A DNA stretch of 39,359 bases. Source: Nitrospirota bacterium (GTDB lineage Bacteria; Nitrospirota; JACRHJ01). Positions 7,820-24,539 of the stretch are shown in pieces. The stretch is from the NCBI GenBank assembly GCA_021789495.1, contig JAJYJM010000008.1:24588-63946 (forward strand). Reading direction: 5' to 3'. The notes beneath the pieces were generated by a model that saw only the letters and a list, made by a program, of their open reading frames with translations, was not told where the DNA came from and searched no databases. How positions within the stretch are numbered: position 1 is the first letter of the stretch; each line of letters opens with the position of its first letter. The position numbers were made by a program, and so were the translations under genes.

Positions 7820-8863
7820 TCAGCAGAGCCTTATTATCTCGGCGGCTATCCTGTCCAAAGGCACGGATATGTCCACCGCCCCCGCCTCAACAGCCTCTTT
7901 CGGCATGCCGTATATCACCGCGGTCTCCTGAGATTCCGCGATGGTTATCCCCCCAAGTCCTTTTATAAGCGACATGCCCTCCCGTCCGTCGTTTCCCATA
8001 CCCGTCAGGATGACGCCCATCGTCCTCCTGCCGTAATTCTGCGCGGCTGACCGCATCATAACATCCACGGATGGTATGTATCTGTCGTCTTCATGCGCTT
8101 CCTTCAGCGAGACCGCAATCCCGCCCCCGCTCCTCCTGAAGGACATATGATGCCCTCCGGGCGTCACGAGGGCCGTCCCCGGAATAAGCGGCTCTCCATC
8201 GACGGCCTCCCTCACGGAAATCTTGCATACCTTATTCAGCCGCTCCGCAAAGAACCTCGTGAATATCGGCGGCATATGCTGGCTTACCGCGATTGCCGCT
8301 GGAAACTGCCTTGGCAGGCCTGCCAGTATCGCCTGCACTGCTGGAGGCCCGCCGGTGGAGGCCCCTATCGCGACAAGGTCTACATGCCGCCTTGAGGGCG
8401 CCTGCCTCTCTTCCTCGTCCTCCACGGGGCCGATTCTCCGGAGCAGGTCAACCGACCTGCTTACCCTGGATATTTCGATCCCGGCGAAAAATTTTACCTT
8501 CTCGAGGAGGTCCCGCCCGAGTTCCTCCATGTCTTCCGGCGACACCGGCTTCGGAAGGAAATCGACAGCCCCGAACTCAAGCGCTGTAAGAACGCTCCTG
8601 TCGTCGTTCCTCGAACTTATTACCAGGGTCGGCGTCGGCGCGACCCTCATCAGCCACCGAAGGAACGTGAAACCGTCCATCCGGGGCATTTCGAGGTCGA
8701 GCGTGATGAGGTCGGGCCTCAGCCTTACGACCTTCTCTATGGCCTCTTCGCCGTCAGCGGCAACGCCGACGACCTCTATTCCCGGCGATTGTCCCAGCAT
8801 CCCGGCCAGGGCATTCCTGTTCGGGAGCGAGTCATCGACCACAAGCACTTTTATTTTTTTCAT
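7820..8863 (-). CDS. cheB: CheB protein-glutamate methylesterase
   Basis: Removes methyl groups from chemoreceptor glutamates and deamidates glutamines, resetting receptor sensitivity. The 347-residue protein has an N-terminal receiver (D10, D11, phospho-acceptor D56 in 'TLDLEMP') and a C-terminal esterase domain (~160-347). The catalytic triad is complete: S169 in 'GASTGG', H196 in 'SQHMPP' and D292 in 'TGMGNDG'. It follows cheR by 27 bp in the operon, so reversible methylation of the nearby receptor is expected. Phosphorylation by CheA would relieve inhibition by the receiver domain. Nothing is missing or unusual. Confidence 0.97.
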   Translation of the reverse strand: MKKIKVLVVDDSLPNRNALAGMLGQSPGIEVVGVAADGEEAIEKVVRLRPDLITLDLEMPRMDGFTFLRWLMRVAPTPTLVISSRNDDRSVLTALEFGAVDFLPKPVSPEDMEELGRDLLEKVKFFAGIEISRVSRSVDLLRRIGPVEDEEERQAPSRRHVDLVAIGASTGGPPAVQAILAGLPRQFPAAIAVSQHMPPIFTRFFAERLNKVCKISVREAVDGEPLIPGTALVTPGGHHMSFRRSGGGIAVSLKEAHEDDRYIPSVDVMMRSAAQNYGRRTMGVILTGMGNDGREGMSLIKGLGGITIAESQETAVIYGMPKEAVEAGAVDISVPLDRIAAEIIRLC

Positions 8864-8890: not shown

Positions 8891-9760
8891 CTATATTGGC
8901 ATCGCTTCCCTGACTGAAACCGGCTTCTGGTAAACCATGTCGTTTCTTAGGTGAACGAGCCTGAATGCCGTCGTAACGTTCAAGAGCGACTCCGCATGCC
9001 CCAGCAGGAGATACCCGCCCGGCGACAGCTTGTCGTAGAACATCTTTATGAGTTTCTTCTTCGACTCAGGGTCGAAATATATCATCACGTTCCGGCAGAA
9101 TATGACGTCAAATCCCTTGAGGAAGCTTAAGCGGTACGGGTCGAACAGATTCAAATGGGAAAACGTCACGAGCTTTTTTATATCGTCCGATATCCTGAAG
9201 CTCCCGGGCAATTCCTCTTTGAAGTATTTGCGCATCATGTCGTCCTTGATGGCTCGGAAGGAGCCGCGTCTGTAGACGCCTCTGCGGGCGGCGGTCAGCA
9301 CCTTCTGGTTTATGTCGCTGCCTATTATCTCCATATCTATTCCGCCTATGTGTCCGGCCTCGGAGAGTATCATGCCTATCGTATACGGTTCCTCGCCGGT
9401 CGAACAGCCCGCGCTCCACACCTTGAGCGTCTTCTGGCCTCCGGGGCCTATGATTTCCGGGAGAATTTCGTCCCTGAAAGCCCTGAGCTGCGCCTCTTCC
9501 CGGAAGAAATACGTCTCGTTCGTGGTAAGACTGTCCACTACCTCCACAAGCTCCGCCTCCCTTCTTCTGTCGTAGGACAGGAAGCGGTAATAGTCGAGGA
9601 AGGTATTGAGCTGGTGCAGGCGGACGCGGCGCGAGAGCCTCTTCTCCAGGAGATATTTCGATGTGTCGTCGAAATAAAGCCCGCAGTAATCCCGGATAAA
9701 GTCCCGAAGCAGCCGGAAAACGTCGTCCGGAAGCTCCACTATGTCCTCGGTAAAAATCAT
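8891..9760 (-). CDS. cheR: CheR chemoreceptor methyltransferase
   Basis: Transfers methyl groups from S-adenosylmethionine to receptor glutamates. The 289-residue length is typical for a CheR without a TPR tail. The N-terminal helical domain (~10-85) contains 'TTNETYFFRE'. The SAM-binding loop is 'VWSAGCSTGEEPYTI' (~114-128), and 'IFCRNVMIYF' and 'GGYLLLGHAESL' are also present. The start codon overlaps the stop of the upstream HEAT-repeat gene by four bases (ATGA), implying translational coupling. With cheB it provides the adaptation module. No receptor C-terminal pentapeptide is evident on the operon's receptor, which ends 'IDYSVS', so binding is presumably direct to the methylation helices. 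Confidence 0.97.
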   Translation of the reverse strand: MIFTEDIVELPDDVFRLLRDFIRDYCGLYFDDTSKYLLEKRLSRRVRLHQLNTFLDYYRFLSYDRRREAELVEVVDSLTTNETYFFREEAQLRAFRDEILPEIIGPGGQKTLKVWSAGCSTGEEPYTIGMILSEAGHIGGIDMEIIGSDINQKVLTAARRGVYRRGSFRAIKDDMMRKYFKEELPGSFRISDDIKKLVTFSHLNLFDPYRLSFLKGFDVIFCRNVMIYFDPESKKKLIKMFYDKLSPGGYLLLGHAESLLNVTTAFRLVHLRNDMVYQKPVSVREAMPI

Positions 9761-11733
9761 TTGCCTTCCCCGACAAGCCTCGACGCGGCCTCTCTTACGA
9801 TGCGCTCCGGGTCGCTTTCCGCCGCCGCGGCCAGAAGCTCCGCGCTCCCCTCAATCCCCGCGCGGACCAGCGCTTCGAGCGCGGCCTTCCGGACGCTCCA
9901 GTCCGGGTCTTTCGCAAGCGTCTTCAGATTAAGAAGCGGCTCCGGCGCGTTCAACGACAGCGCGGCGGATATGCCCGCCTTCCTCACCTCCGGGTCCCTG
10001 TCCGTCATCGCGTTAAGTATATGCTTCCCGGCCTCCGGTCTTCCCGTCCTTCCGAGCCCCTCGACGGCCTCCATTTTGACAGGGCCGTAGACATCCGACA
10101 GAAGCGAAAGGAGCGCGGCGAAAACCCTTGGGTCGGATTCGTAAGATAAGGCCCTTGCGGCCTGCGCCCGCACCCAGGGATCGGAGTCTTTTAAAAGCAG
10201 GAACATCGGCTCCGCCGCTCCGGGGACGTTCTTCCCAGTCAGGGCGTTTACCGCGGAGAGCCGCACCCTCGCGTCCTCGTCCACTACGCACCTGAGCACC
10301 GCTCCGAGCGACGCATCCTCGTCCGCAGTGGCAATGGAATCGACAGCCGCAGCGCGGACTTCGGCGTCCTCGTCTTTTAAAAGCCCCTCAAGGACCGGCG
10401 CGTTCCCCTTCCCCAGGAGGCCGCACAAAAACGCGATGTTCCTCCTGAACGAAGGCTCCGGGTCCTGGGCGAGGGCCTTCAGGTTAAGTCCGTCCCTGAC
10501 GCCGGGTATGGATGCGACGGCCTTTATCGCCGTTTCCTGGACGTCGGGGTATTCGTCCCGCAAAAGTTCCAGCATTCTGAGCGCGGATTTCTCCGCCTTA
10601 AGCCTGCCCATCGCCGCCACCGCCGCAGAACGGGTGTGCCCGTCCTCGTCGTCGAGGAGCGGCAGGAGAAATTTCGACGCCCTGGCGTCCCCCGCAATTC
10701 CCAGAAGCTCCGCGCAGGCGCGTCTCACCGCCGCGTCTTCGTCGTTCAGCAGGAATATCAGCGGCTCTACTCCGTCCCTGGAAATCTCGAAGAGCGCGGC
10801 CATCGCGTCTTCACGCAGTTCGTCGTCGTACAGAAGTCTTGCGACGGCGCCCACCGCGCCCCGCTCCCTCATCCACCCGGCCAAGCGGGCTGCGGACTTG
10901 CTGAGCTCCGGCTCGTAGGAACTTATAAGTCCTTTTATGAATTCCATTTCGTCCGCGCCGAGCTCCGACTTAAGCTTGCGCGCGAGCGCGCCCGGCTCCG
11001 GCGAGGACGCCATTATCCTGGCCGCGCCCTTCACGGCTATTTCCCGAATCACGGGGACTTCGTCTTTCAGCGCCTCCTTGAAAACCGGCCAGGCCGAGGG
11101 ATCGCCAATCCTGTATAGCGCGTCGAGCGACGGCTCCCTGAGGAAGTCGTCCTTCGAGGCCTCCATGAGCGCGCCGACGGCTTCCTGGTCTCCGAGCTCT
11201 CCGAGCGCGGCGGCAGCGTTGAAAGCGAGCCACTGCTCGTCCGCCTTCAAAAACGAGACAAGCGCCGGAATCGCGCTCTTCGCCTTCATCTTGCCCAGGT
11301 GTTCCATGGCCGAGGAGCGGACGTTCATGTCGCTGTCGCCGAGCGCCCTTATCAGGGCGTCCACGCAGGATAAATCGCCTATCTCGCCTATGATGTCAAC
11401 AATGAATTTCCTGACGTCCCTGTCCGGCTCGCCCAGCCGCATGGAAAGCGCCTTTGCCGCGGGAGGCCCAAGCCTTATCAGGCCTTCCGCGGCAGAGTTG
11501 CGCGCGCCTGCGTTGTCCTCGGAAAAAAGCGACCGGTACAGCCCCTCGAAGACCTCTTCCCCGCCGTAGGAGACGAGCGCGTCGAGAGCGGTCTTGCGCA
11601 CCCGCCAGTCAGGGTCGGCGACGGCCTTCAGGAGCGCAGGGATATATTCGGCGGAAACGTTTTCCGCCATCTCCGCCGCCGCGAGACGCCGGGCCTCCGG
11701 GTCTTCCGCCTCGAGCCTCTTCAATATATCCAT
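9757..11733 (-). CDS. HEAT-repeat protein in chemosensory operon
   Basis: A soluble protein of about 658 residues built almost entirely of ~31-residue helical repeats. The recurring pattern is 'D.dw.VR..A..aL..ig' (for example 'DPDWRVRKTALDAL', 'DSDMNVRSSAMEHL', 'DPDWSVRKAALEAL'), typical of PBS-lyase-type HEAT repeats, with roughly 19-20 units. There is no catalytic motif, signal peptide or membrane segment, so it is probably a scaffold or adaptor. The frame is open to 11775, but that start lies inside cheW. ATG 11733 follows the cheW stop by 16 bp, with 'AGGA' just upstream, so it is chosen. Its stop overlaps the cheR start, a tight link suggesting that it works with CheR or the array. Confidence 0.88.
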   Translation of the reverse strand: MDILKRLEAEDPEARRLAAAEMAENVSAEYIPALLKAVADPDWRVRKTALDALVSYGGEEVFEGLYRSLFSEDNAGARNSAAEGLIRLGPPAAKALSMRLGEPDRDVRKFIVDIIGEIGDLSCVDALIRALGDSDMNVRSSAMEHLGKMKAKSAIPALVSFLKADEQWLAFNAAAALGELGDQEAVGALMEASKDDFLREPSLDALYRIGDPSAWPVFKEALKDEVPVIREIAVKGAARIMASSPEPGALARKLKSELGADEMEFIKGLISSYEPELSKSAARLAGWMRERGAVGAVARLLYDDELREDAMAALFEISRDGVEPLIFLLNDEDAAVRRACAELLGIAGDARASKFLLPLLDDEDGHTRSAAVAAMGRLKAEKSALRMLELLRDEYPDVQETAIKAVASIPGVRDGLNLKALAQDPEPSFRRNIAFLCGLLGKGNAPVLEGLLKDEDAEVRAAAVDSIATADEDASLGAVLRCVVDEDARVRLSAVNALTGKNVPGAAEPMFLLLKDSDPWVRAQAARALSYESDPRVFAALLSLLSDVYGPVKMEAVEGLGRTGRPEAGKHILNAMTDRDPEVRKAGISAALSLNAPEPLLNLKTLAKDPDWSVRKAALEALVRAGIEGSAELLAAAAESDPERIVREAASRLVGEGK

Positions 11734-11749
11734 CGACAAGTCCTGTTCC

Positions 11750-12247
11750 TTAAATATCCGGAGTCGTGCGCGCACGCTCCAGTTCCGCCAGTTCGCCGGG
11801 GTTAAGGAGCTTCTCCGGGTCGAGCACCATTATAAGCCTCTCGCCCGCCTTGCCTATACCCTGGAGAAACTGCGCCTCCGGCCCCTTTACTATTTCAGGG
11901 GCATCCTCTATCGAGCCCATGTCCATGTACAGAATTTCCTTCACGTCGTCAACCACGGCCCCGACTTTCCTGCCGCCTATAAGCAGTATAAGAACCTTGC
12001 TCCTGGAACCGGCGTCTGAGCCATGTGTTATACCCAGCCTTTTCCTGATGTCTATAACCGGGACGACGCCTCCGCGCAGGTTTATGACGCCCTCGATAAA
12101 GTCCGGGGCCTTCGGGACGAACGTGAGTTTCTGGGGCCTGATTATCTCCGTTATCCTCATTATATCCACGGCGTATTCGCCCGCGCCGGCGGAGAATACC
12201 GCCAACTGGACCCGCCTGTCTTCTTTTTTTACCGCACTTTCCTGCAT
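11750..12247 (-). CDS. cheW: CheW coupling protein (compact)
   Basis: Couples CheA to the chemoreceptor in the signalling array. The 165-residue protein is a single CheW domain: 'QLAVFSAGAGEYAVDIMRITEIIRP', 'PDFIEGVINLRGGVVPVIDIRKRLG' and 'GAVVDDVKEIL' are the characteristic strands. The conserved Asn-Leu-Arg-Gly segment is intact. It lies 10 bp after the receptor gene, so receptor and coupler are likely made together. A second, much longer CheW lies at 19181-20104 in the same operon. Two couplers could form mixed arrays or connect CheA with different partners. Confidence 0.95.
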   Translation of the reverse strand: MQESAVKKEDRRVQLAVFSAGAGEYAVDIMRITEIIRPQKLTFVPKAPDFIEGVINLRGGVVPVIDIRKRLGITHGSDAGSRSKVLILLIGGRKVGAVVDDVKEILYMDMGSIEDAPEIVKGPEAQFLQGIGKAGERLIMVLDPEKLLNPGELAELERARTTPDI

Positions 12248-12257
12248 CGCCGCCTCT

Positions 12258-15161
12258 TCAAGAGACTGAGTAATCTATACCGTAAAGCCTTTTCATCATC
12301 TTCCTTATGGCGTCGTATTCCCCGTCGCTTACGTCCGTAAAACCCTCGCATTCAGAGTCTATGGCCTTGAGTATCCTGGCCTGTGCCGGGTCCGATGTCG
12401 AAAGACCGACAAACGCCTTCTTGAGTTTTTCCCGAATGGCCGAGTCCACTTTCTTGCCCGCCGAGAAATTAAAGTTCGCAATCGAGTCCGAATAATGGAT
12501 TATCTTTAAGCCCTTGTTCAGGTATTCCCTGGCAACGGATTCCATCATCCCGCCTGCGTCGCATTCCCCGGCCAGGACGGCCTTTGCCACCGCGTCATGG
12601 CGATCAAGGTACTTGTAGGATTTCAGGTCGTAGAGTCTTATCCCCGCGTCGCCCAGGATTGCTCTCGGCATCAGGTGCGAGGAAGTGGATTTTTCGCTCC
12701 CGAAGGCGAAACTTCTGCCCCGTATGTCCTTAACGGCCGTGATATCCGAACCGTCCTTAACAACAATAACCGAACGCGTGAAAATGTTCCCCCTGCCTAT
12801 GGATTTTACGATAGCCTCGACTCCGTACTTGTATCTCGCTTCAACATAGGTCGCCGGGCCGAGCCAGCAGACGTCGGTAATGCCGAGGCCAAGGTCGTTC
12901 ACGGCGGCGGCCATGTCCTGGCCCGGAACCACCTCCACCTCCACGCCAAGGCTGTCCGAGATATAGCCGGCAAGCGGCATGAAACGTTTCTTCATGTTTT
13001 CCGGCTCCTCGAGCGGCAGGACGCCCAGGCGCATCCTGCCGGACGACAGGCTGTACTGCGACATGAGCGAGAAGTGGTTTATTTCCTCCCTTAAGAGATC
13101 CGCCTGGCTGGAAAGCTCCGAAACGGACTGGTCCATCTCCCCGGCCAGTTTTACGGAAACGGCCGTTATTTCCCTTATCTTGCCGAGCGCCCGCACTATC
13201 TCCTGGCTCCCCTTCTTCTGCTCGGATGTGGCCGCGGCGATATTTTGGACCTTGTCCGAGACGTTCTCGACGGCGACGGTAATCTGTTTGCTGCCCTTCG
13301 TCTGCTCGGCCATGGCGGTCTTTACCTGACGGCTTATGTCGTTCATGTTCTCGGACGCCACCATAATCTGCTCGGAGCCCTGGCTCTGCTCCTGCGTGGC
13401 CGCAAGTATCTGCTGCACCATGTTTGAAATAGACAGCATCGCCGCGGACACCTGGCGTATCCCCTCTGCCTGCTCCACGGTAGCCTTTTCTATGCCCTTG
13501 GACATCGAGGCGGCGCGGGTGGAACTCTGCACTATCTTCTTTAGCGCCTCCTTGGCCTCGTTCGCTATCCTGACCCCCTGCTCAACGCTCTCGCGGCCCG
13601 TCTTGATGGATTTTACCGCGTCCTTGGCCTCCGTCTGCACGGCGCTTATACGTTTCGCTATCTCCTGGGTAGACGAGGAGGTGCGCTCCGCCAGGTCTTT
13701 TATCTCGTTGGCCACGACGGCGAAACCCTTGCCGTGCTCGCCCGCCTGGGCGGCGAGTATCGCGGCGTTGAGCGCAAGGAGCGAGGTCTGGTCGGTAACG
13801 TCGTCTATGACGGTAAGTATCTCGCCTATCTCTTCGGAACGCACGCCCAGTTGTTCTATTACCTGCGCCGCTTTCTCGACGGTTTCCTTGATATTGCTCA
13901 TGCTCTCGATGGTCTTTTCGACCGACCTCATGCCGAGCCCGGACGCCTCTTCCGTAACCTGCTCCGAGAGATATGCCGATTCCTTCGATATGGCCTCGAC
14001 TTCCTTTATGGAGGCGCCCATCTCGGTTGCGGAGGCCGTGGTCTCCTCCGCCGCGCTTGAGAGCACGTCCATGTTCTCCGCGACCTGTTTTATGGACGCC
14101 GCCATTTCCATGATCGAAGACGAGGTGGATTCCGCAGAAGCGGAGAGCTGTCCGGTACTGCCCGCGACCTGGTCTATAGAGGCAGCCATTTCCATTATCG
14201 AGGACGAGGAAGATTCGGCAGACGACGAAAGGGAATCCACGCTCTCGGCAACTTCCTTTATCGAGGCATTCATCTCCTCCATGGAGGACGAGGTGGTCTC
14301 CGTAAGGTCGTGCTGGGCCTCCGAGCCTTCGGATATTTTCTTTGCGTTCATGGCTATCCGCTCGGTGGCGTTGGCGACGCTTATGGAGGCATCCTTTACC
14401 CTCGCCAGCATGTTCTTGAGGTTGGATACCATACCGTTAATGGCGCTGCCGAGCTCGCCCAGTTCGTCGTCCGAATCCGTCTCGATAAGCTTTGTCAAAT
14501 CGCCGCTCGCTATTTTTTTGGCGGTGATTACCAGGCTTGATATTCTGCCGGTGATAAACTTTGAAACGAAGAAGGCGAAAACGATAATGGAGAGAATCAT
14601 GGAGCCGACGGCTATGAGCATTGACCTGAATATCAGTTTCCGTTTCTGAGCGTATACGTTGTCGTAGTCCAGGCCCAGCCTGATGGAGCCTACATGCTTA
14701 CCCTCCGGGTCGGAAAGCGGTATGACCGTGTCGTAATAGCTCTTATGCCCGTACTCGAATACCGGCGCGCTCTTCCTTTCCTCCGTGGTTGCCCTCGCGG
14801 CGGCCATGCTTACCGGGTCCGTAAGCGCCTTGCCTATGTCGTCCGCCTTGTTAGAAAACAGGACCTTCCCGGAAGGGTCCACCACCATGCAGTATCCGAT
14901 GTCGGAGTCCTTGCCGGTCAACTGCGCGCAGCGTTCGTTGACGCCGGAGAGGGATTCCAGCGGTAGCCCGAGGTTCAGCGAATCCTGAAGGTTCTCCTTG
15001 AAAGAATCCCCTACCGCGAACGCCTTGCCCAGAAGGGCCTGTGTGTAAAGGGTCGTAAACCCGTACGTCAGGGCGGCGGTGGAAACGGATATAACGCCCA
15101 GCAGCACCAGGGTCACGATTGCGAGCACCCTTACCCGGAGGGATTTAAGACTGATTTTCAT
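12258..15161 (-). CDS. Chemoreceptor (MCP) with C-terminal PhnD-like binding domain
   Basis: A 967-residue inner-membrane receptor. TM1 (~12-32) is followed by a periplasmic Cache-like sensor (~33-177, '[17 protein letters not shown]', '[19 protein letters not shown]'), TM2 (~178-200), HAMP (~200-253) and a long signalling coiled coil (~260-700). The hairpin tip at ~451-495 reads '[19 protein letters not shown]' and '[20 protein letters not shown]'. 28-residue repeats occur on both arms. After the coil, ~708-967 is a second domain resembling PhnD-type phosphonate/phosphite-binding proteins ('[20 protein letters not shown]', '[10 protein letters not shown]', '[20 protein letters not shown]'). 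No membrane segment separates it from the coil, so it should be cytoplasmic. Such domains are usually periplasmic. The gene lies 13 bp after an ABC_sub_bind gene. The ligand is unknown. Confidence 0.93.
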
Positions 15162-15174
15162 TGCCTTCCTCCTC

Positions 15175-16116
15175 CTACTTGATTACCTTCGTCGCCGCGT
15201 TCAGGACGTCGAAAGGCACCTTTATGGACAATGCGTTCGCGGCCTTCAGATTAACTACAAGATTTATCTTCCTGGCGCTTTCCATGCCGATCCTCGAGAC
15301 CGGCACTCCCTTCAGTATCTTCGCCGCCATCATCGCGGCGTCCGCGCCCTGCTCCTCCGGAGACGGGGCAAGGGCAAGAAGGCCTCCGTTTTCGGCAATC
15401 CCGGAGACCTGCGCAATTACCGGAATCTTCTTCCTGTCGGCTGCCGCGATGATTCCGGATTCGCCTTTGCCGACAGCCGCGCTGCACGATACATAAACGC
15501 AGTCTGCGGCGGTCTTCTGCACTATCGACTTCGCCGCCTGGGCGCTCTTAACCTGTACTCCAACAGGGCTGAACCTCAGGGCGGGCGCATTCCTTACAAC
15601 CTCGTTCCACTGGACAACGGAATCCTTTTCATACGGGTTATAAAGCACGGCAAGCCTGGTAAAGGGCTTTATCGACTTCATCGTTCGAAGCAGGGTTACC
15701 ATCGGAACCTTTGAACTTACCCCCGTGGAGTTTGCCCTCTTAGACCCGCATGCGGCGGGATCGTACACGTAGGCGAAAACGATTGGTATCCTGCCTGTCT
15801 CCCTTACCGCGGTAGTCGCCGCGCCCGCCCCGTAGGCGACTATGACATCCGCCTGAATCCCGATAAACTTTCTCACGCTGTTCGTCCAGGACATCGGGTC
15901 GGGGTTGGGCGTCTGGACATAGACCGAGACCTTGCCCTGGCCGAACCCCGCCCTGGCAAGGGTTGACATAAAGGCCTTCTGGGCCTCCTGATAACGCGGC
16001 AGATCGCCTGAAAACACCACGCCGATAGTCTTCTGGGCCGCGAATGCTCCTGGCACGCAAAAACAAGCCGTCATAAGCAGAAATAGAAAAGTGAAGATGG
16101 CTTTTCTAAGAGGCAT
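15175..16116 (-). CDS. Periplasmic ABC_sub_bind family binding protein
   Basis: A 313-residue exported protein. The N-terminal signal peptide (~1-26) ends 'GAFAAQ' and there is no lipobox. The mature part follows the ABC_sub_bind (PF04392/TrpX-like) pattern: '[20 protein letters not shown]', '[19 protein letters not shown]', '[12 protein letters not shown]', '[19 protein letters not shown]'. Family members bind small organic ligands, but no ABC permease or ATPase lies near it. In this operon it is 9 bp after the outer-membrane porin gene and 13 bp before the receptor, so a role as periplasmic co-receptor or conduit-associated sensor is plausible (inference). ATG 16116 has AGGAGG upstream. Confidence 0.88.
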
Positions 16117-16125
16117 TGTCTCCTC

Positions 16126-18111
16126 CTACCATTTTTTGGTCGCCAGCATCATTACCGTCTGTGCCGTGCCGTTCTGGGGCCCGTCCTGGGGCTTGTTCTT
16201 GAAATCGACGAAATTGTTTATTCCGTAAGTAGCCGATAACCCCCAGCCCTTGTGCAGGGCATATTTCGCCGTGATGCTGCCGCCGGTTTCCCTGTCGGCC
16301 AGGTCGGCAAGCTCGCCAATCCCTGCGGTGCTGCCTGCGCTGCCAGTCTCGACAATTCTGAATACACCCTTGCTGAAGCTCTGGTGAAACTCCGCATCCA
16401 GCGTGAGCGGAATGACGGCAAAGACATAATCGCCGGAGACTGAGTAGACGTGGGACTGGTCGTCATACGGCGCAAGCTCCTCCGAAAGCGACACCACCGT
16501 GAGCGGCGGGGGCTGAAGAATGATTTCCCTCTTCATGTTGTACCGGAAGTAGTCGTAGTTCACGGACATCGTGAACGGCCCGCCGGGAGTCCATATCAGG
16601 CCGACGCCGGGGTTGTTGTAGTCGGAGTGCATATCGGAGGTGTTGTTGTCGTTCACGGTGAGCCTGTAATGCAGGTTCGCGCTTAATGCCGACATCGGGA
16701 TAATGTTCACGTCCGCACGCGCCTTGTAGGAATTCTTCGGGTTTACCGGGTATGCGGGCTCTCCGGTATAGGTATATTCCACGCCGCCCCTGAAGTTTAT
16801 CCATCGGGCCGGGTCGGAGGTTACCCCGGCGGTTACTTTATGGATGTTCTGCTGGGATGGTATGCTCTGGAACGGGATTATCGGAGCACTGGTGCCCGGG
16901 GATACGATCGCATTCCATGCATCGACATTGTATCGCTGGAGGTTCTCATAGGAGTATTCGGCGTTGAATGCGAGCACGGTAATCGGGTTATAGCGGACGG
17001 ACACCTCGGCCCTGTTCGATCTGTAGCTTATCGGATTTGTCGGGGTAACGGTAGGTGTCAAGCTGCCTGTCCCCGCCGGGACGGCCTCGACGGTCTCGTC
17101 CGTCCAGTTGCCGCGGTAGCGTATCGCCACCGTCAGGCCGTTCGCGGGTATCAGAGTAACGTCGCCGTATGCCCTGCGGTATTTAAGGTCGGCCTCCGAG
17201 TGTTCGTTCCTGCGCTCGCCGTTTATGAACGTGCTGTCGGCCACTATCCTCCCGGTATAGTCCGTATGCAGTTTAACGGTATCGAGGTTGTCGTCGTATT
17301 GCGGCACATGGCTTGGATAAAGACCGCTCTCAAGGATTGGGATTTCCACTTCTCCGTGCGGGTCGAACGTCTTCGCCGTATGGCTGTATTCCGCCTCCAC
17401 CGGGCCGAAATGGCCGTTTATCCCCACGTTCAGTTTCGTGGTTACCCAGTCTATATCCCTGGAGAGGGACTCTTTCGCATGTAGCGTCTGAGACACGTCG
17501 AAGAACCTCGCCTGGATAGTCCCTTCCTTCTCGAAGTGCCGCATGTTCACAAAGACGTGATACGGCCTGTCCGGCCATTTCAGCACCAGGGACAGCCTGT
17601 TGTCCCGGTCGTCCGTAAAATAATTGTCACCAATATCCGTGTCGCGAGGCGCCCCTAACGGGTGCAGGCCGCCCGGTATGGGGCCTCCTATCAGGCCGTA
17701 GTGGTTGTAGTTGCGCCAGAGCGCCCACCCGGTATAATCGACCTTTACCATGTCTTTGTATGCGAAGGAAAGATCCGCATCCCAGCTGTTTGGATTCACC
17801 CATTCGAGGTTCGCCTCCCACCTCGTGGGCAGAGGAACATAAACCACATTGAATCCGCCCACTACGGAGCCGTATGGATATTCATATTCGGCGGCCTTCC
17901 TCGAGCCTTGCAGGTCGAAGAAATTATAGCCCAGCCATGCGTTGCCCTCCGACGGCATTGAGTAATCCGTGTTCCCCTGCGCGCCGCCGTCGGTCACGGT
18001 CTGCCCTCCATCCGGCGCGGGTTGACCCGCCGCCGCATTTTCATCCGCAAATGCCCTGCCGCCCGTGAGAACGGCCATGAGGACCAGCAGGGCGATCAAT
18101 ATGTTCTTCAT
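16126..18111 (-). CDS. Outer-membrane beta-barrel of MtrB/PioB type (cytochrome conduit porin)
   Basis: A 661-residue exported beta-barrel with a signal peptide at ~1-22 ending 'GGRAFA'. Many alternating hydrophobic strands follow, and the protein ends in an aromatic residue ('LATKKW'), typical of outer-membrane barrels. Strand patterns such as 'DIDWVTTKLNVGINGHFGPV' and 'EAEYSHTAKTFD' resemble MtrB/PioB-family porins, which sheath a periplasmic decahaem cytochrome to carry electrons across the outer membrane. The adjacent decahaem gene, 22 bp upstream, supports this. The start is ATG 18111, preceded by AAGGAGG. The frame is open to 18183, but that extension runs into the cytochrome gene. The N-terminal CxxC of some MtrB proteins is absent. 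Other large barrels cannot be fully excluded. Confidence 0.75.
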   Translation of the reverse strand: MKNILIALLVLMAVLTGGRAFADENAAAGQPAPDGGQTVTDGGAQGNTDYSMPSEGNAWLGYNFFDLQGSRKAAEYEYPYGSVVGGFNVVYVPLPTRWEANLEWVNPNSWDADLSFAYKDMVKVDYTGWALWRNYNHYGLIGGPIPGGLHPLGAPRDTDIGDNYFTDDRDNRLSLVLKWPDRPYHVFVNMRHFEKEGTIQARFFDVSQTLHAKESLSRDIDWVTTKLNVGINGHFGPVEAEYSHTAKTFDPHGEVEIPILESGLYPSHVPQYDDNLDTVKLHTDYTGRIVADSTFINGERRNEHSEADLKYRRAYGDVTLIPANGLTVAIRYRGNWTDETVEAVPAGTGSLTPTVTPTNPISYRSNRAEVSVRYNPITVLAFNAEYSYENLQRYNVDAWNAIVSPGTSAPIIPFQSIPSQQNIHKVTAGVTSDPARWINFRGGVEYTYTGEPAYPVNPKNSYKARADVNIIPMSALSANLHYRLTVNDNNTSDMHSDYNNPGVGLIWTPGGPFTMSVNYDYFRYNMKREIILQPPPLTVVSLSEELAPYDDQSHVYSVSGDYVFAVIPLTLDAEFHQSFSKGVFRIVETGSAGSTAGIGELADLADRETGGSITAKYALHKGWGLSATYGINNFVDFKNKPQDGPQNGTAQTVMMLATKKW

Positions 18112-18133
18112 ATAAAATCCCTCCTTTTGGTCC

Positions 18134-19108
18134 TTAGCGTGTGAATGCGCCGCCGTTACCCAGGTCCGGGGTATCGGAACCATGAATCTCGGTGTGGCAG
18201 TCCGTGCATATCGTGCGCGCCTGCTGATTAAGCTGGTCCGTCACGGGGTGCTGGGCCTCGTGGCACTGGTAGCACAGGTACGGCAGGCGCACTTTAAGCA
18301 GGTGCTGGTTCACCGAGCCGTGCGGGCGATGGCAGTTCAGGCAGTTCTCGGTGACGTCGCCGTGCTCGAAGGCGAACGGCCCGGCCTTCTCCGCGTGGCA
18401 GTTGCCGCAAAGCTCCTTCATGCTCCCGTCTTTCAGCATGTGCCTGTTGGGCGAACCCATCGGGTCGTGGCAATCAAGGCATGTGACCGCACCTTCGTTG
18501 ACGGGGTGATGGTTCGGAAGAGAGAACTGCGCCCTTATCTCCGGATGGCATTTGTAGCACAGAGCCACCACGTTCCTACGGCCAACTTTCAGGTCCACGC
18601 CCTTATGGACGTTATGGCAGTCGAAACACGACACTCCGGAGAGGTTGTGTATGCTCGTGTTCCAGTAATGCAGGCCGAAGGTGGCGTTCGCGGTATGGCA
18701 TTTAAGGCAGATGAGGGACTGCGCCTGCTTCGGGAGGCGCTTTAAGTCGATGAGCGTTGAGTAATCGCAGGTGCGTCTTCCGTTTATCACCCTGATATTA
18801 GCGATTGCAAGGCTTCCCGGGCCGTGGCAGGACTCGCAGTTAACAAGCGGCAGGCCGGAATCGGAGCTTAACTGCGACCCCATCGTCGATGCGTCGAACC
18901 ACTTCTTGAGCTGGTCGTGCGCATGGCACTTTGCAAGACATGCCTGGTCGCCCACGTAATTTGCGTCCAGTCTTCCAACTATCAGCTTTTCGTACTCGCT
19001 TACCGGTATTATCGGCTGGCTTTCCTGCATGCCGGCGCATCCCGCGACGGCGGCAACCGCCGCCAGGAATACGGCCAGCAATACGGCCTTTCCCCCTCCT
19101 CGGAACAT
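18134..19108 (-). CDS. Decahaem c-type cytochrome lipoprotein (DmsE/MtrA-like)
   Basis: A 324-residue exported cytochrome. I count nine CxxCH haem sites (CESCH, CLKCH, CFDCH, CYKCH, CLDCH, CGNCH, CLNCH, CYQCH, CTDCH) and one atypical CxxxCH near the N-terminus (C57-C61-H62), ten in total. The size and haem spacing fit DmsE/MtrA/PioA decahaem cytochromes, which move electrons across the periplasm into an MtrB porin, encoded next. The N-terminus carries a lipobox ('VAGC', C24), so it is probably a lipid-anchored variant, unlike soluble MtrA. ATG 19108 has AGGAGG upstream. A 72-bp gap separates it from the upstream cheW, the largest gap inside this operon, so an internal promoter is possible, although none is convincing. 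Confidence 0.92.
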   Translation of the reverse strand: MFRGGGKAVLLAVFLAAVAAVAGCAGMQESQPIIPVSEYEKLIVGRLDANYVGDQACLAKCHAHDQLKKWFDASTMGSQLSSDSGLPLVNCESCHGPGSLAIANIRVINGRRTCDYSTLIDLKRLPKQAQSLICLKCHTANATFGLHYWNTSIHNLSGVSCFDCHNVHKGVDLKVGRRNVVALCYKCHPEIRAQFSLPNHHPVNEGAVTCLDCHDPMGSPNRHMLKDGSMKELCGNCHAEKAGPFAFEHGDVTENCLNCHRPHGSVNQHLLKVRLPYLCYQCHEAQHPVTDQLNQQARTICTDCHTEIHGSDTPDLGNGGAFTR

Positions 19109-19180: not shown

Positions 19181-20104
19181 TTAAGCCGCCAGCGCCCTGG
19201 ACGTCTTTATTAAAATAAGCAGCCTGTTCCCGCCGTCATCCGCCCTTCCGACGCCTTCGATAAACTCCGCCTCGTTCCCGCTTATAACCGACGGAGGCGG
19301 CTCCATGCCTTCTCTTGACATGAAACTGACGCCCGTTATACTGTCAACCACCATCCCGCTTAAAGAAAAACCGCCATCCGAAACGACTATAATCCTCGCC
19401 TGGCGGGACGGCTTGAACTCTCCAAGGCCCAGGCGTTTTTTCACGTCGAAAACCGGCAGGATTACGCCCCGAAGCGAGATTATGCCGATTATATGCTCCG
19501 GCGCGCGCGGCACCTTCGTGGGTTTTCTCCACCTGATTATCTCCCTTGCCTCTTCCATCTTAAGCGCGTATTCCTCGCCCGCGAGCATGAACGACAGAAG
19601 CTCAAGCCTATCCGGAAACGCGGGCGACAAGGCATCCGCCACGGGCGCAGAAACGGCCTTTTCCGTCCCCGGCGAATCTCCCGGTACCGTTTTAATGTCC
19701 GCCTCGAACGCGGCGCCTGGTCGACCTGCCGGCTCTTGAACGGAGGTATCGCATGGCTTTTCGACCGGCCCCTCAACGGATGCGGAGCCTGGAATTTCCT
19801 CTTCGTTATAACCCTCCCCGACCGGGGAAACTTCAGGCCGGGTGGAGGCTTCTTCCGTCTGCGCAGGAATGGTTACCGAATCTTTTATACCCTCCGCATG
19901 AGGCCCGGCGTCAGCCGTTTTTCTCCGCGATGCCTTCTTTTTCCGGGGAACTCCCGACCGCCCTTTACGCTCCTTCGCAGGCTGCTCCGCCAACTCCGGG
20001 GCAGGCGCATCGCCTGAAATCTCTCCTGCCGCCGGTTGGCCGGCCTTGGCCGCTTTGGCCTCTTTCGCCTCCCTGGCTTTTTTCCTTATCTCCAGTAAAT
20101 CCAT
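19181..20104 (-). CDS. CheW-domain protein with long disordered N-terminus
   Basis: A 307-residue coupling protein. Residues ~1-165 are rich in Ala, Glu, Pro, Lys and Gly with no recognisable fold and are probably disordered. The start is strongly charged ('MDLLEIRKKAREAKEAKAAK'), and a basic stretch 'PRKKKASRRK' lies near residue 55. Residues ~168-307 are a CheW domain ('LELLSFMLAGEEYALKMEEA', 'HIIGIISLRGVILPVFDVKK', 'SGMVVDSITGV'). It lies between the ExeA-like ATPase (11 bp) and the decahaem gene (72 bp). A long flexible tail on a coupler could tether the array to another protein or to DNA, and the neighbouring ATPase is an obvious candidate (inference). Confidence 0.9.
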   Translation of the reverse strand: MDLLEIRKKAREAKEAKAAKAGQPAAGEISGDAPAPELAEQPAKERKGRSGVPRKKKASRRKTADAGPHAEGIKDSVTIPAQTEEASTRPEVSPVGEGYNEEEIPGSASVEGPVEKPCDTSVQEPAGRPGAAFEADIKTVPGDSPGTEKAVSAPVADALSPAFPDRLELLSFMLAGEEYALKMEEAREIIRWRKPTKVPRAPEHIIGIISLRGVILPVFDVKKRLGLGEFKPSRQARIIVVSDGGFSLSGMVVDSITGVSFMSREGMEPPPSVISGNEAEFIEGVGRADDGGNRLLILIKTSRALAA

Positions 20105-20115
20105 ACTGTTAACCC

Positions 20116-20922
20116 TTATCCGAGAAACCCGAGGTCTCTTACGGCGTCCTCGACAAGCCCCGCGCCGACCATGCTCTCTCCCGCGCCGAAACCGGCAAGA
20201 AGCGCGCCCGTGGCTATGGTATTTATGAGCCTCGGCACACCACCGGAGCGGGCATGTATAAGCTCGATCGCCTTCTCGTCGAAAATCTTTTCGCCCCTGC
20301 CCGCCACCTTAAGGCGATGCGCCAGGTAAAGCGCTGTCTCCCGGGCCGTAAGCGGCGGAAGATGATATGCTATGCCTATCCTCTGCGTGAGCGCCCTGTA
20401 TGCCGGACGCTTCAGCCTGTCCTTTATCTCCGTCTGGCCGACAAGCACAAGCGAGAGCAGGTTCGTGTCGTCGAGCTGGTAGTTGGTGAGGAGTCTTATC
20501 TCCTCGAACGTGTCCTTGCCCGGTATCAGCTGCGCCTCGTCTATTATAATTACGGGGCACTGCCCTCTCTCGTGGAACTGGTACAAAAAGGAATTTATCT
20601 GCTCCACGAGGTCTGCCTTGTAGTGCATCGGCTTCTCGGCGCCGAGCTTCTTCGCCAGCGCCCGGAGGAACTGCGCCGGGGAGAGCCTCGGGTTCGTAAT
20701 GAGCACGGGCTTGAAAGAGCTGTCCAGGGAATCTATCAGGGCGCGCGTAAGGGTGGTCTTGCCGGAGCCGACTTCGCCCGTCAGGAGCGCCACCTCCCGC
20801 TCCTCCACGGCGTACTGAAGCCTCGCCAGCGCCTCGGCGTGAGAGCGGCTCATGTACATGAAAGCCGGGTCGGGTGTCTTGGAGAAACATCTCGTTTTCA
20901 GTCCGTAAAACTCTTCGTACAT
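20116..20922 (-). CDS. ExeA/GspA-like AAA ATPase
   Basis: A 268-residue cytosolic ATPase. It has Walker A 'GEVGSGKTT' (residues 49-57), Walker B 'VIIIDEAQ' (~124-131) and the family opening 'YGLKTRCFSKTPDPAFMYMS'. The C-terminal lid contains 'RSGGVPRLINTIATGALLAG'. This is the ATPase module of the ExeA/GspA type, found in type II secretion and in other ATPases such as transposition factors of the TniB class. The peptidoglycan-binding domain of full-length ExeA is absent and there is no membrane segment. It sits 6 bp after cheA and 11 bp before a cheW, so it probably serves the chemosensory array (positioning or output), which is unusual. No secretion or transposon gene is nearby. Confidence 0.88.
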   Translation of the reverse strand: MYEEFYGLKTRCFSKTPDPAFMYMSRSHAEALARLQYAVEEREVALLTGEVGSGKTTLTRALIDSLDSSFKPVLITNPRLSPAQFLRALAKKLGAEKPMHYKADLVEQINSFLYQFHERGQCPVIIIDEAQLIPGKDTFEEIRLLTNYQLDDTNLLSLVLVGQTEIKDRLKRPAYRALTQRIGIAYHLPPLTARETALYLAHRLKVAGRGEKIFDEKAIELIHARSGGVPRLINTIATGALLAGFGAGESMVGAGLVEDAVRDLGFLG

Positions 20923-20928
20923 AATCCT

Positions 20929-22911
20929 TTAGCGCATCTGCCTTTTCTTGGTCGATTCGTTTATAAGGGATTCAAGGTCCAGAACGAGCACAACCTCGTT
21001 GTCGCCAAGCTCCGTCGCCCCGGCAATGCCCGGCAGGTCCTTCAGCTTCTCACCCAGGCTCTTTATTACCACCTCCTGCTGACCGAGGAGCCTGTCCACC
21101 ACGAAACCTATCCTGCGTTCCGCTAGCCCCGCCACGACGACATAAATAAACTCCTGGTCTTCTTTCTTCGGAAACCGGAATACCTCGTCGAGTCTTAGAA
21201 GCGGCAAGGTCTCGCCCCTGAGCGTTATCACCTCGCGCCGCTCGACCGAGTTCACCTTCTCCGGTTCGAGCATCAGCGTCTCGGACACAGCCGAGAGCGG
21301 CATTGCGAATTTCTCCCCGCCGGACTCCACCATCAGCCCCTTTATTATCGCGAGGGTGATGGGCAGGGTTATGGTGATATTGGTGCCCCTGCCGATTTCT
21401 GTGTCGATGTCTATGATGCCGGAGAGTTTTGCGACGTTCCGCTTGACCACGTCCATGCCTACGCCGCGCCCGGAAACCTCGCTGACCTCCTCTTTCGTCG
21501 AGAAGCCCGGCAGGAATATAAGGTCGAGCATCTCTCGCCTTGTCAGCGTCTCGGAAGGCTCGGCAAGTCCCTTCTCGACGGCCTTGCGCCAGACCCTTTC
21601 CGGGTCTATGCCGCCGCCGTCGTCCTCGACTGATATGGCGACCCTGTTCCCCTTGGGGTATGCGTCCAGGCGTATCTTTCCGCGCGGAGGCTTGCCTCGC
21701 CTGGCCCTTTCCTCCGGAGGCTCTATGCCGTGGTCGATGGCGTTTCTTATCAGGTGCATCAGAGGGTCGGAGATTTCCTCTATCACGAGTTTGTCGAGCT
21801 CCGTGTCCTCGCCGAACATCTCCATTCGTATGTCCTTGCCCACCTCTGAAGAGTATTTCCTTACCGCCTGCGAGAGCCTGGTGAATATCTGGCCGACGGG
21901 GACCATGCGGGCTTCGATGACCCCCTCCTGAAGCTCGGAAAGCTTCCTCTCAAGCCCGCGCGAGGCTTTGTACAGGTCTATTGCCAGCCCCTGGAATCCC
22001 TGCACGGCCCGAAGATCCTTCGAGAGCCGGGTAATGACGTTCTTGGAGAGCACAAGCTCTCCGACTATGTTCATTATCCTGTCAAGACGGGAGATGTCCA
22101 CCCGGATAGTCCTGGACAGACTCCGCACCGTCTTCGATTCCGGCTCCGCCTTCTTCTGGACCGCCTTGTACTTGATTACCGAGACTACGACGTCCGGCCC
22201 GGACAGCTCCGAAATAAATTTTTCGACCGACTCCTTTGTCCCGACAAGTATATTGAACTCTATGCCTGCCTCCGGGCCCGTTCCGGTAGTGGGCAGCGTG
22301 CTGATTATCTCGCCCATCACCTTCAGCCGGTCGTTAAGCGATGTCAGGTCTTTGTCGAAGCTCGCAAGGTCGAACCGGGCCTTTACAAGGAGTATGGAAT
22401 GTTTGGCCTTGACGTTCTCCCGGAGGCGATGCTCCTCATACTCGGTCAGGACCTTCAGTATCTGGGCGTCTATCTCTATCTCGTCCGTGAGGTCCTTTGA
22501 ATCCAGGCCATGCCCCTTGGATAGCGCGTCCTCTATCATGGAGGATATGTCGGCGTAATCCGAGCGCTCGGCCCCGCCCCGGCTTATGTCCTCGGAGAGT
22601 ATCTTAAGCCTGTCCAGCGCGGCGAATATTACGGAGGTCATTTCATGGGAGATGGGCAGCTTGCCCAGGCGTAGGGCGTCGAGGAGGGATTCGAGCTGGT
22701 GGGAGAGCTGCGAGATGCCCTCAAAACCGAACATGCCGGAGAGGCCTTTCAAGGAATGGACGCCGCGGAATATCGCGTTGACGACATCCGGGTCAACCTC
22801 TCCGGACTCGGTCATTTCGTCCATGCGGGTAAGGTGCTGGCCAAGGTCTTCGAGGATGTCCTCGCTCTCGGCCAGGAACTCGCCCCTGGACTTGTCGTCC
22901 TTTCCTGCCAT
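20929..22911 (-). CDS. cheA: CheA chemotaxis histidine kinase
   Basis: The central kinase of the chemosensory array, which passes phosphate to CheY and CheB. In order along 660 residues: an HPt domain with phospho-acceptor H52 ('GVHSLKG'), a P2-like middle domain (~170-250), dimerisation helices (~262-335, 'ISRLDRIMNIVGELVLSKN'), an ATPase domain with N-box 'HLIRNAIDHGIEPPEE' (~386-401), G1 'DDGGGIDPERV' (~430-440) and G2 'GRGVGMDVV' (~481-489), and a C-terminal CheW-like domain (~525-655). All catalytic elements are intact and there is no fused receiver. GTAGGAGGA precedes ATG 22911. It follows cheY by 12 bp. Confidence 0.97.
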   Translation of the reverse strand: MAGKDDKSRGEFLAESEDILEDLGQHLTRMDEMTESGEVDPDVVNAIFRGVHSLKGLSGMFGFEGISQLSHQLESLLDALRLGKLPISHEMTSVIFAALDRLKILSEDISRGGAERSDYADISSMIEDALSKGHGLDSKDLTDEIEIDAQILKVLTEYEEHRLRENVKAKHSILLVKARFDLASFDKDLTSLNDRLKVMGEIISTLPTTGTGPEAGIEFNILVGTKESVEKFISELSGPDVVVSVIKYKAVQKKAEPESKTVRSLSRTIRVDISRLDRIMNIVGELVLSKNVITRLSKDLRAVQGFQGLAIDLYKASRGLERKLSELQEGVIEARMVPVGQIFTRLSQAVRKYSSEVGKDIRMEMFGEDTELDKLVIEEISDPLMHLIRNAIDHGIEPPEERARRGKPPRGKIRLDAYPKGNRVAISVEDDGGGIDPERVWRKAVEKGLAEPSETLTRREMLDLIFLPGFSTKEEVSEVSGRGVGMDVVKRNVAKLSGIIDIDTEIGRGTNITITLPITLAIIKGLMVESGGEKFAMPLSAVSETLMLEPEKVNSVERREVITLRGETLPLLRLDEVFRFPKKEDQEFIYVVVAGLAERRIGFVVDRLLGQQEVVIKSLGEKLKDLPGIAGATELGDNEVVLVLDLESLINESTKKRQMR

Positions 22912-22923
22912 CCGGAAATCCTC

Positions 22924-23292
22924 CTACCCAAGCACTTCCTTTACAAGTTCCTGAAGCTCGTTCCCCTTGAACGGCTTTATGATATAACCGGATGCGCCAA
23001 GCTTCAGGCCGCGCTCCATGTCCTCGTCGCTCCGCTCCGTGCTGACAATGATGAGCGGAATGTCCTTGTAGTCCGGATGTCCCTTAACGAAGCTTATCAG
23101 TTCCAGTCCGTTAATGTCGGGCATGTTGATGTCCGTAATGATAAGGTCATACTTTCGCGCGGGAAGGTTCTTCAGGGCGTCGAAACCGTTCGCGGCCTCA
23201 AACGTCGAAAAACCGGGCATCTGCTCTACGGTTGCCCGGATAAGCCCCCTCATGGCCCTGGAATCTTCCACTATCAGGACGGAATACGACAT
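22924..23292 (-). CDS. CheY-like response regulator (promoter-proximal)
   Basis: A 122-residue stand-alone receiver with E9/D10, phospho-acceptor D54 ('IITDINMP'), S84/T85 and K106 ('YIIKP'). Its ATG overlaps the stop codon of the upstream DUF4388 gene by one base (TAATG), and cheA starts 12 bp later, so it is the cognate receiver by position. It is similar in size and layout to the distal receiver at 6556-6930 but clearly not a recent duplicate, since the helices differ. No FliM-binding prediction can be made, and no flagellar genes are present in the window. Confidence 0.94.
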   Translation of the reverse strand: MSYSVLIVEDSRAMRGLIRATVEQMPGFSTFEAANGFDALKNLPARKYDLIITDINMPDINGLELISFVKGHPDYKDIPLIIVSTERSDEDMERGLKLGASGYIIKPFKGNELQELVKEVLG

Positions 23293-24539
23293 TACGGCTG
23301 TTTCCTCCCGCTCTCCGCCTGTTTTGTTCCGGGATGAACGCGTCCTGCCGACATCTGTTTTTCGAGTTCCGAAATCTTACGCTCAAGAAGCGCCTTTTCC
23401 ATGGCAAGACCCGCCTGGTGCACGAATATTTCCAGGCCGGAAATGCCGGGGATAGGCCTGCCGTCCGGGAGGTTGTCGCCGTACAGGATTGCCGCGACCC
23501 TCCCGTTGCTTATCATCGGCACCAGGAAATACCCTTTCGGTTCCCCGCCCAGCTCTTTCATAAGATACATATCCCAGGCGCTGTCCGTGAAGCAGCCTAT
23601 CTTTGTCCGCTTGTCGCGGATGACTTCCGAGAAGATGGACGACTCCTTCACCGGGACCCGTATCTTCCTGACGCGCCTGTCGGGGGACTCGTCCGGGAAT
23701 TCCATCCCGAACTGCCCAAGCCCGCGTATCTCGTCCCTCGTAACCATAAAAAGCACCGCCCGGCTTACAAGCTCGCTCGCATACCTGAGTATCAGGAGCG
23801 TTATCTCCGCAGTGGCCGAAGGGAATCTCAGTTCCTCAAACATGGACTTAAGCTGGTTAAGCTCTCTGTCCTTATCCGTCGCGGCCTTTTCCTCCGGTGA
23901 CGGAACCGAAGGCGCAACCCCCTGCTCCTGAAGAAACTGCGCAAACTCGGAGACCTTTGTCTTGTCTTCGGGCTCCTGGCGGGGTTCGCCGCCCGCGTGC
24001 AAGGACGGCTTTCCCTTTTTCCCCCGCTTCCTCTCGTCCAGAACGCGGGCGCTCTCCATGAGGAGATACTCCGGGTTCAGGCCGGCCTTGAGCAGAAAAT
24101 CCTGCGTCACGACTTCTATCTTGTCGGATACCGAGACAGAGCCCAGGTCGAAGTTGAAGAACCCGTCCTCCCACGCCAGCAGGGAGTAGACCATGCTCTC
24201 TATCTGCTCCCTTATCGTCTCTTCCAGCACCTCCTGGGAAATCGCGCCCGTCTCCACGAGTATCTGGCCCAGACGCTTGACGCCCTTCACGTTCTTCTGA
24301 ACGTTAAGCGCGCGCGCCAGGCTGTCTTCCGAGATATATCCTTTCGAGATAAGGATATTACCAAGCGTGTCGCGGATGTCGTCCGTCGCCGCCTGAATTA
24401 TCTGCCCGTTTTTAAAAACTACAACGGCGGAACCCTTCGTCTTGTTCTTAAGGATAAGGGTTCCTGTTTTTTTGCTAAGGCTTATAATCTGGAAGATATC
24501 TGCAAGCGCCAGGTCCTCCAGACGTCCAACAAGGCTCAT
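23292..24539 (-). CDS. DUF4388 (PATAN) protein with C-terminal GAF-like domain
   Basis: The first gene of the chemosensory operon, 415 residues, cytosolic. Residues ~1-150 match the DUF4388/PATAN domain ('LEDLALADIFQIISLSKKTG', 'LILKNKTKGSAVVVFKNGQI', 'IRDTLGNILISKGYISEDSL'), a domain that in cyanobacterial and deltaproteobacterial proteins mediates two-component contacts. A charged linker (~175-225) follows, then a GAF-like region (~235-395, 'ASELVSRAVLFMVTRDEIRG', 'GYFLVPMISNGRVAAILYGD'). There is no catalytic domain. ATG 24539 has GGAGA six bases upstream, and a good promoter lies 26 bp further up. Likely an input or output adaptor for the CheA/CheY pair. Confidence 0.85.
   Translation of the reverse strand: MSLVGRLEDLALADIFQIISLSKKTGTLILKNKTKGSAVVVFKNGQIIQAATDDIRDTLGNILISKGYISEDSLARALNVQKNVKGVKRLGQILVETGAISQEVLEETIREQIESMVYSLLAWEDGFFNFDLGSVSVSDKIEVVTQDFLLKAGLNPEYLLMESARVLDERKRGKKGKPSLHAGGEPRQEPEDKTKVSEFAQFLQEQGVAPSVPSPEEKAATDKDRELNQLKSMFEELRFPSATAEITLLILRYASELVSRAVLFMVTRDEIRGLGQFGMEFPDESPDRRVRKIRVPVKESSIFSEVIRDKRTKIGCFTDSAWDMYLMKELGGEPKGYFLVPMISNGRVAAILYGDNLPDGRPIPGISGLEIFVHQAGLAMEKALLERKISELEKQMSAGRVHPGTKQAESGRKQP

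Follow-up and report, generated by a model that had tools for sequence, protein, structure and literature searches.

Chemoreceptors that carry an LBD at their C-terminus are a known but poorly characterised class, of which the PF12974 fusion described here is a variant. In Pfam, the LBDs located at MCP C-termini belong to at least 17 types (PMC7390727), and DcrH and Tlp1 have been given as examples of chemoreceptors with C-terminal sensor domains (PMC13401364). CZB receptors, DcrH (hemerythrin) and Azospirillum Tlp1/Aer (PilZ) likewise have a cytoplasmic sensor located after the MCP signalling domain, but their modules deal with zinc, di-iron/O2 or c-di-GMP, whereas the present receptor ends with a domain that has the two-lobed fold of substrate-binding proteins. 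A literature search with incomplete coverage of subscription papers and of the list of 17 types found no paper on PF12974 at an MCP C-terminus; it is quite possible that the fusion was noticed earlier at the level of Pfam architectures.

AioX, ArrX and the PhnD-like XAC2383 belong to the same superfamily as this domain and are involved in sensing instead of uptake. They are separate periplasmic proteins that act via a partner receptor, whereas the domain studied here is cytoplasmic and fused to its receptor. The effector domains of LysR-type regulators use a type II binding-protein fold as a cytoplasmic sensor, but joined to DNA binding and not to a chemoreceptor. The nearest protein by both sequence and fold is PtxB (5o2j, 5o37, 5lv1, 5jvb), which has an STS-H motif in common with the fusions. 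PtxB is a secreted periplasmic ABC component capped by D16 and Y203, whereas the fusions have an L/F cap and no adjoining transporter genes. Its contacts with phosphite involve S124, T125, S126, H155, Y49 and Y94, the cap being formed by Y203 and D16 (PMC5700983). On the periplasmic side, the CxxCH domain of most fusions looks like that of the sCache_haem receptors GSU0582 and GSU0935 from Geobacter (PMC12889525), for which no C-terminal PF12974 is described; the receptor of the window itself lacks CxxCH.

The window, i.e. the whole stretch of 39,359 nucleotides from a Nitrospirota bacterium that was analysed, carries an unbroken reading frame of 967 aa. The initial annotation had located there a chemoreceptor with a PhnD-like C-terminal domain; its coordinates are correct, and the strand, which it did not state, is the minus one. 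The gene and the parts of its product are the following:

12258-15161 (stop included), minus strand: mcp gene, 967-aa chemoreceptor with a C-terminal PF12974 domain (single ORF and Pfam)
15072-15140, minus strand: TM1, residues ~8-30 (hydropathy)
14637-14939, minus strand: periplasmic sCache_3_2 domain, residues 75-175 (Pfam, 38.2 bits, cut-off 28.4)
14547-14636, minus strand: TM2, residues ~176-205 (hydropathy)
14415-14570, minus strand: HAMP, residues 198-249 (Pfam, 48 bits)
13068-14414, minus strand: MCP signalling hairpin, residues 250-698 (Pfam, tip position, helix end at 698 in the full-length model)
13038-13067, minus strand: flexible linker, residues 699-708 (low pLDDT at 698-707, no hydrophobic segment)
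12261-13037, minus strand: cytoplasmic PtxB/PhnD-type type II binding domain, residues 709-967 (PF12974, AF2, Foldseek)

The single product of this gene runs from a periplasmic Cache through a HAMP and a long signalling hairpin to a PtxB-type domain in the cytoplasm. It has the sequence hallmarks of MCPs: MCPsignal (PF00015, core at residues 411-575, 155.8 bits in Pfam), HAMP and a conserved hairpin tip around residue 475, with about 32 heptads each way. The gene is linked to those of CheA, CheW, CheR and CheB, on the same strand and in the same cluster, and this linkage is kept in relatives. The tip (residues ~465-480) departs from the usual MCP sequence NAAIEAARAGEQGRGF; its L and Q are found throughout the family, where contacts within the trimer or with CheA might be affected by them.

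The C-terminal domain matches Phosphonate-bd PF12974 at residues 712-949, with the whole profile covered (1-242; 199 bits for a cut-off of 27, E=8.4e-59), and NCBIfam TIGR01098 is also matched above its cut-off. The AlphaFold2 model of residues 690-967, built with 47 relatives (pLDDT 91.8), has a two-lobed type II fold. Its top Foldseek match is Pseudomonas stutzeri PtxB (5o37, E=1.9e-26, TM 0.84/0.89), followed by further structures of PtxB and by those of ArrX, PhnD, AioX and HtxB among the matches, and the sequence search also gives PtxB as closest (5o2j, E=7e-30). The two-lobed PhnD-like domain that had been proposed after the coil is therefore present, and it is PtxB-like rather than E. 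coli PhnD itself.

Only two TM segments were found by hydropathy (~6-38 and ~175-212). None follows the coil, the hydropathy maximum being 1.18 over all windows past residue 255 and 0.40 around the junction, and no segment between coil and domain reaches the TM threshold in any of the 50 fused frames described below. In the full-length model, which is weak in the coil (mean pLDDT 72, pTM 0.37) and was used for no fine detail of it, the helix is unbroken to residue 698 and is followed by a low-confidence linker (698-707) and then by the domain. Contact with CheA/CheW requires the hairpin to be in the cytoplasm; the domain begins about 10 residues after it and is therefore cytoplasmic too. This location, already proposed by the initial annotation, is well supported. 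The traits usual for transport proteins, a signal peptide and a periplasmic location, are absent, since the PF12974 domain follows a cytoplasmic coil without any TM; instead, the receptor has a sensor-type domain after its signalling domain and on the cytoplasmic side, as C-terminal-LBD receptors do.

Across Nitrospirota, the fusion is conserved and has a che operon dedicated to it. When 84,980 species genomes were scanned with the fused domains as query and one peptide pattern, [YWF][ML][TGS]PxTY[IV]EA, 62 loci were obtained, i.e. 50 MCP+PF12974 frames and 12 Paenibacillus proteins that were rejected as fusions because they are free secreted proteins. The 50 further fusions recovered in this way come from Nitrospirota MAGs or from MAGs labelled only 'bacterium', the pattern being narrow enough that fusions with other motifs outside Nitrospirota may be missed. 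Two of the loci, L081 and L082, are apparent exceptions to the single frame that are explained by a frameshift and an N-gap, respectively. In a sample of 296 genomes from the phylum, 76 matches of at least 267 bits make up a fusion-type group, sharply set apart by score; they come from 68 genomes, and their frames are 640-1040 aa long throughout (counts tallied by hand, the MCP part being confirmed in the 50 fetched frames and not in each of the 76). The next score group, at 259 bits or less, is mostly made of 538-600-aa tandem-domain proteins and ~300-aa binding proteins. In independent genomes, relatives that are 90-94% identical over the domain have this frame as well. The tree unites the fused domains in one group (96/86) inside the diversity of the Nitrospirota binding proteins; the only intruder is one non-fused row on a long branch (L036), whose placement was not relied on. 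No viral relatives were found, and the plasmid matches listed bear the annotation of free phnD-type genes or none at all (~30-35% identity).

Other arrangements of PF12974 were encountered in Nitrospirota. Proteins of ~570 aa in which two PF12974 domains in tandem are combined with an N-terminal anchor are common (e.g. L042:5570-7288). In L043 (9403-12584), one of them has an sCache_3 histidine kinase and a protein of the GGDEF-EAL type next to it, a neighbourhood that suggests a sensor rather than transport role for the tandem proteins. In two other proteins (L036:9762-12188 and L041:3706-5745), a C-terminal PF12974 comes directly after a TM and the N-terminal part is unrecognised; in contrast to the fusion, their PF12974 is probably periplasmic.

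The pocket of the fused domain can be compared residue by residue with that of PtxB at the following positions:

12678-12689, minus strand: oxyanion-binding STS motif S825-T826-S827-S828, matching PtxB S124-T125-S126 (PMC5700983)
12597-12599, minus strand: H855, equivalent of PtxB H155 (His in 47/48 fusions)
12471-12473, minus strand: F897, in place of the capping Y203 of PtxB (F in 48/48 fusions)

The STS-H oxyanion motif of PtxB (S825, T826, S827 and H855) is present, but the capping D16 and Y203 are absent and replaced by L717 and F897. The STS is kept across the fused domains (S825 in 48/48, T826 in 46/48, S827 in 43/48) and, like the H, is among their most conserved positions, while L stands at the D16 position in 46 of the 48. 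F, Y or M is found at the Y49 position, and the Y94 position is variable. None of the non-fused relatives checked showed the L/F cap combination, and several have an altered STS-H while still being recognised as the same domain. When the window gene is compared with two congeners, dN/dS amounts to 0.067-0.071 for the PF12974 domain (0.066-0.125 for the periplasmic domain, 0.033-0.045 for the coil); the PF12974 domain is under purifying selection. Judging from these residues, the oxyanion site is constrained, and its specificity has probably shifted. A straight phosphite specificity is unsupported, as the cap residues differ from those of PtxB; the expected putative ligand would be a small oxyanion other than classical phosphite, because D16 and Y203 have been changed to L and F. 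Given the lost cap and the variable Y94 position, the pocket may also bind something else or bind weakly.

The periplasmic part of the fusions is variable. A CxxCH motif occurs in the periplasmic segment of 33 of the 50 fused frames (L046-L095), and an Mcp40H-20 sensor was identified with Pfam in 18 of 31 scanned fusions, while the window's genus has sCache_3 without CxxCH. When joined to signalling modules, the haem-c Cache domain has been reported to act as a sensor of NO (PMC12889525), and the motif indicates that most fusions are probably haem-c Cache receptors. At least six fusions (L069, L072, L078, L083, L093 and L094) lack a periplasmic domain and have two adjacent TMs, PF12974 being the sole recognised sensor of L069 and L093; such fusions provide the strongest comparative argument for the C-terminal domain as an input itself. 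The periplasmic input thus varies (haem-c Cache, sCache_3 or none), whereas the C-terminal domain and its anion motif are constant. These comparative data fit the two-input receptor proposed by the initial annotation, of which the reading of a ligand is the part that we infer.

The other conserved che genes of the window are all located on the same strand:

7820-8863, minus strand: CheB methylesterase (Pfam; conserved in relatives)
8891-9760, minus strand: CheR methyltransferase (Pfam; conserved in relatives)
9757-11775, minus strand: HEAT-repeat protein of the operon (Pfam; conserved in relatives)
11750-12247, minus strand: CheW (Pfam; kept beside the fusion in relatives)
19181-20104, minus strand: second CheW-domain protein (Pfam; immediately upstream of the fusion in most relatives)
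20116-20922, minus strand: AAA_22 ATPase between CheA and CheW (Pfam; conserved in relatives)
20929-22911, minus strand: CheA kinase (Pfam; conserved in relatives)

In most relatives, the usual order is DUF4388-CheA-AAA ATPase-CheW-fusion-(usually a second MCP)-CheW-HEAT-CheR-CheB-GAF protein. The HEAT-repeat, AAA_22 and DUF4388 proteins (9757-11775, 20116-20922 and 23292-24539 in the window) are conserved members of the che operon across Nitrospirota. The window keeps the che set, with three extra genes between CheW and the fusion (15175-19108, minus strand), which encode a lone binding protein similar to TrpX, a porin similar to MtrB/PioB and a decaheme cytochrome of the DmsE type. In L077, this trio lies between two MCP-PF12974 paralogues. 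Its position inside the operon hints at a link of the pathway to extracellular electron transfer.

The window's genome has three MCP loci and two PilT, and neither flagellin nor FlhA was found in it. Among the 68 carrier genomes, PilT is present in 68 and FlhA in 21, against 40 and 32, respectively, of 48 sampled non-carriers; this contrast is an association uncorrected for shared ancestry, and non-carriers often have PilT as well. As all carriers have PilT and most lack FlhA, an output through type IV pili, or another non-flagellar one, is more likely than swimming in most of them. The initial reading can be refined in two respects: the domain is PtxB-like with an altered cap, and the pathway is probably of a pilus type or otherwise non-flagellar.

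The fusion is real and probably a functional internal sensor. In the explanation that we favour, and to which we give somewhat better than even chances, the C-terminal domain would bind an intracellular oxyanion and thereby shift the methylation bundle and CheA activity. The following model of its functioning can be drawn. The domain would close on a small oxyanion inside the cell, one that probably resembles phosphate, phosphonate or phosphite without being classical phosphite. The return helix of the hairpin would end near HAMP and the membrane and would tether the PF12974 domain there, a proximity argued from helix length. Because of this proximity, closure of both domains of the receptor dimer would alter the packing of the HAMP-proximal methylation bundle. 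The altered bundle would then tune CheA, an internal signal being added to the periplasmic one. A broader scheme, possible but tentative, is a Nitrospirota pathway that would steer type IV pili, in which one receptor would weigh the cytosolic level of a small oxyanion, read by a recruited binding-protein domain, against a periplasmic redox or NO signal (haem-c Cache in most members).

As the main alternative, the C-terminal domain might be a docking or structural module that, for example, keeps a partner from the operon (CheR, the HEAT protein or a further one) close to the methylation region, its anion site being kept for stability. The protein ends with the PF12974 domain, after which there is no separate tail that could bear a CheR-binding pentapeptide, the HEAT and AAA proteins, for which no role is known, are conserved as neighbours, and the pocket cap is unlike that of all the characterised binders compared. 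We nevertheless consider such a module unlikely, as conservation is not confined to the surface but peaks at positions that include the anion-site STS and H, and as this motif is probably dispensable for folding, non-fused relatives with an altered STS-H being still recognised as the domain. A periplasmic PF12974 domain, reached by an unrecognised re-entrant or translocated topology, is very improbable: all well-studied PtxB/PhnD-type proteins are periplasmic and the related L036 and L041 have PF12974 after a TM, but the low hydropathy past residue 255 in the window and between coil and domain in the 50 relatives, and the short distance from the domain to a hairpin that must meet CheA/CheW in the cytoplasm, argue against it. 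Finally, although the window's genome is a 53-contig draft, the idea that an MCP gene and a separate binding-protein gene were merged by an artefact of assembly or frame is refuted by the single 967-aa frame and by the same frame at 50 other loci in independent assemblies, so that the frameshift between two genes envisaged by the initial annotation can be set aside.

PtxB/PhnD-type domains have been studied as periplasmic nutrient binders, in contrast to the cytoplasmic version conserved on this chemoreceptor. The fusion is a tractable case for how C-terminal sensors signal to CheA, and the natural variants without a periplasmic domain make this signalling directly testable. In the broader scheme, a transporter-type ligand trap would have been turned into an internal metabolic gauge; with such a cytoplasmic version conserved on a chemoreceptor, the cells would steer by the oxyanion level inside them as well as outside.
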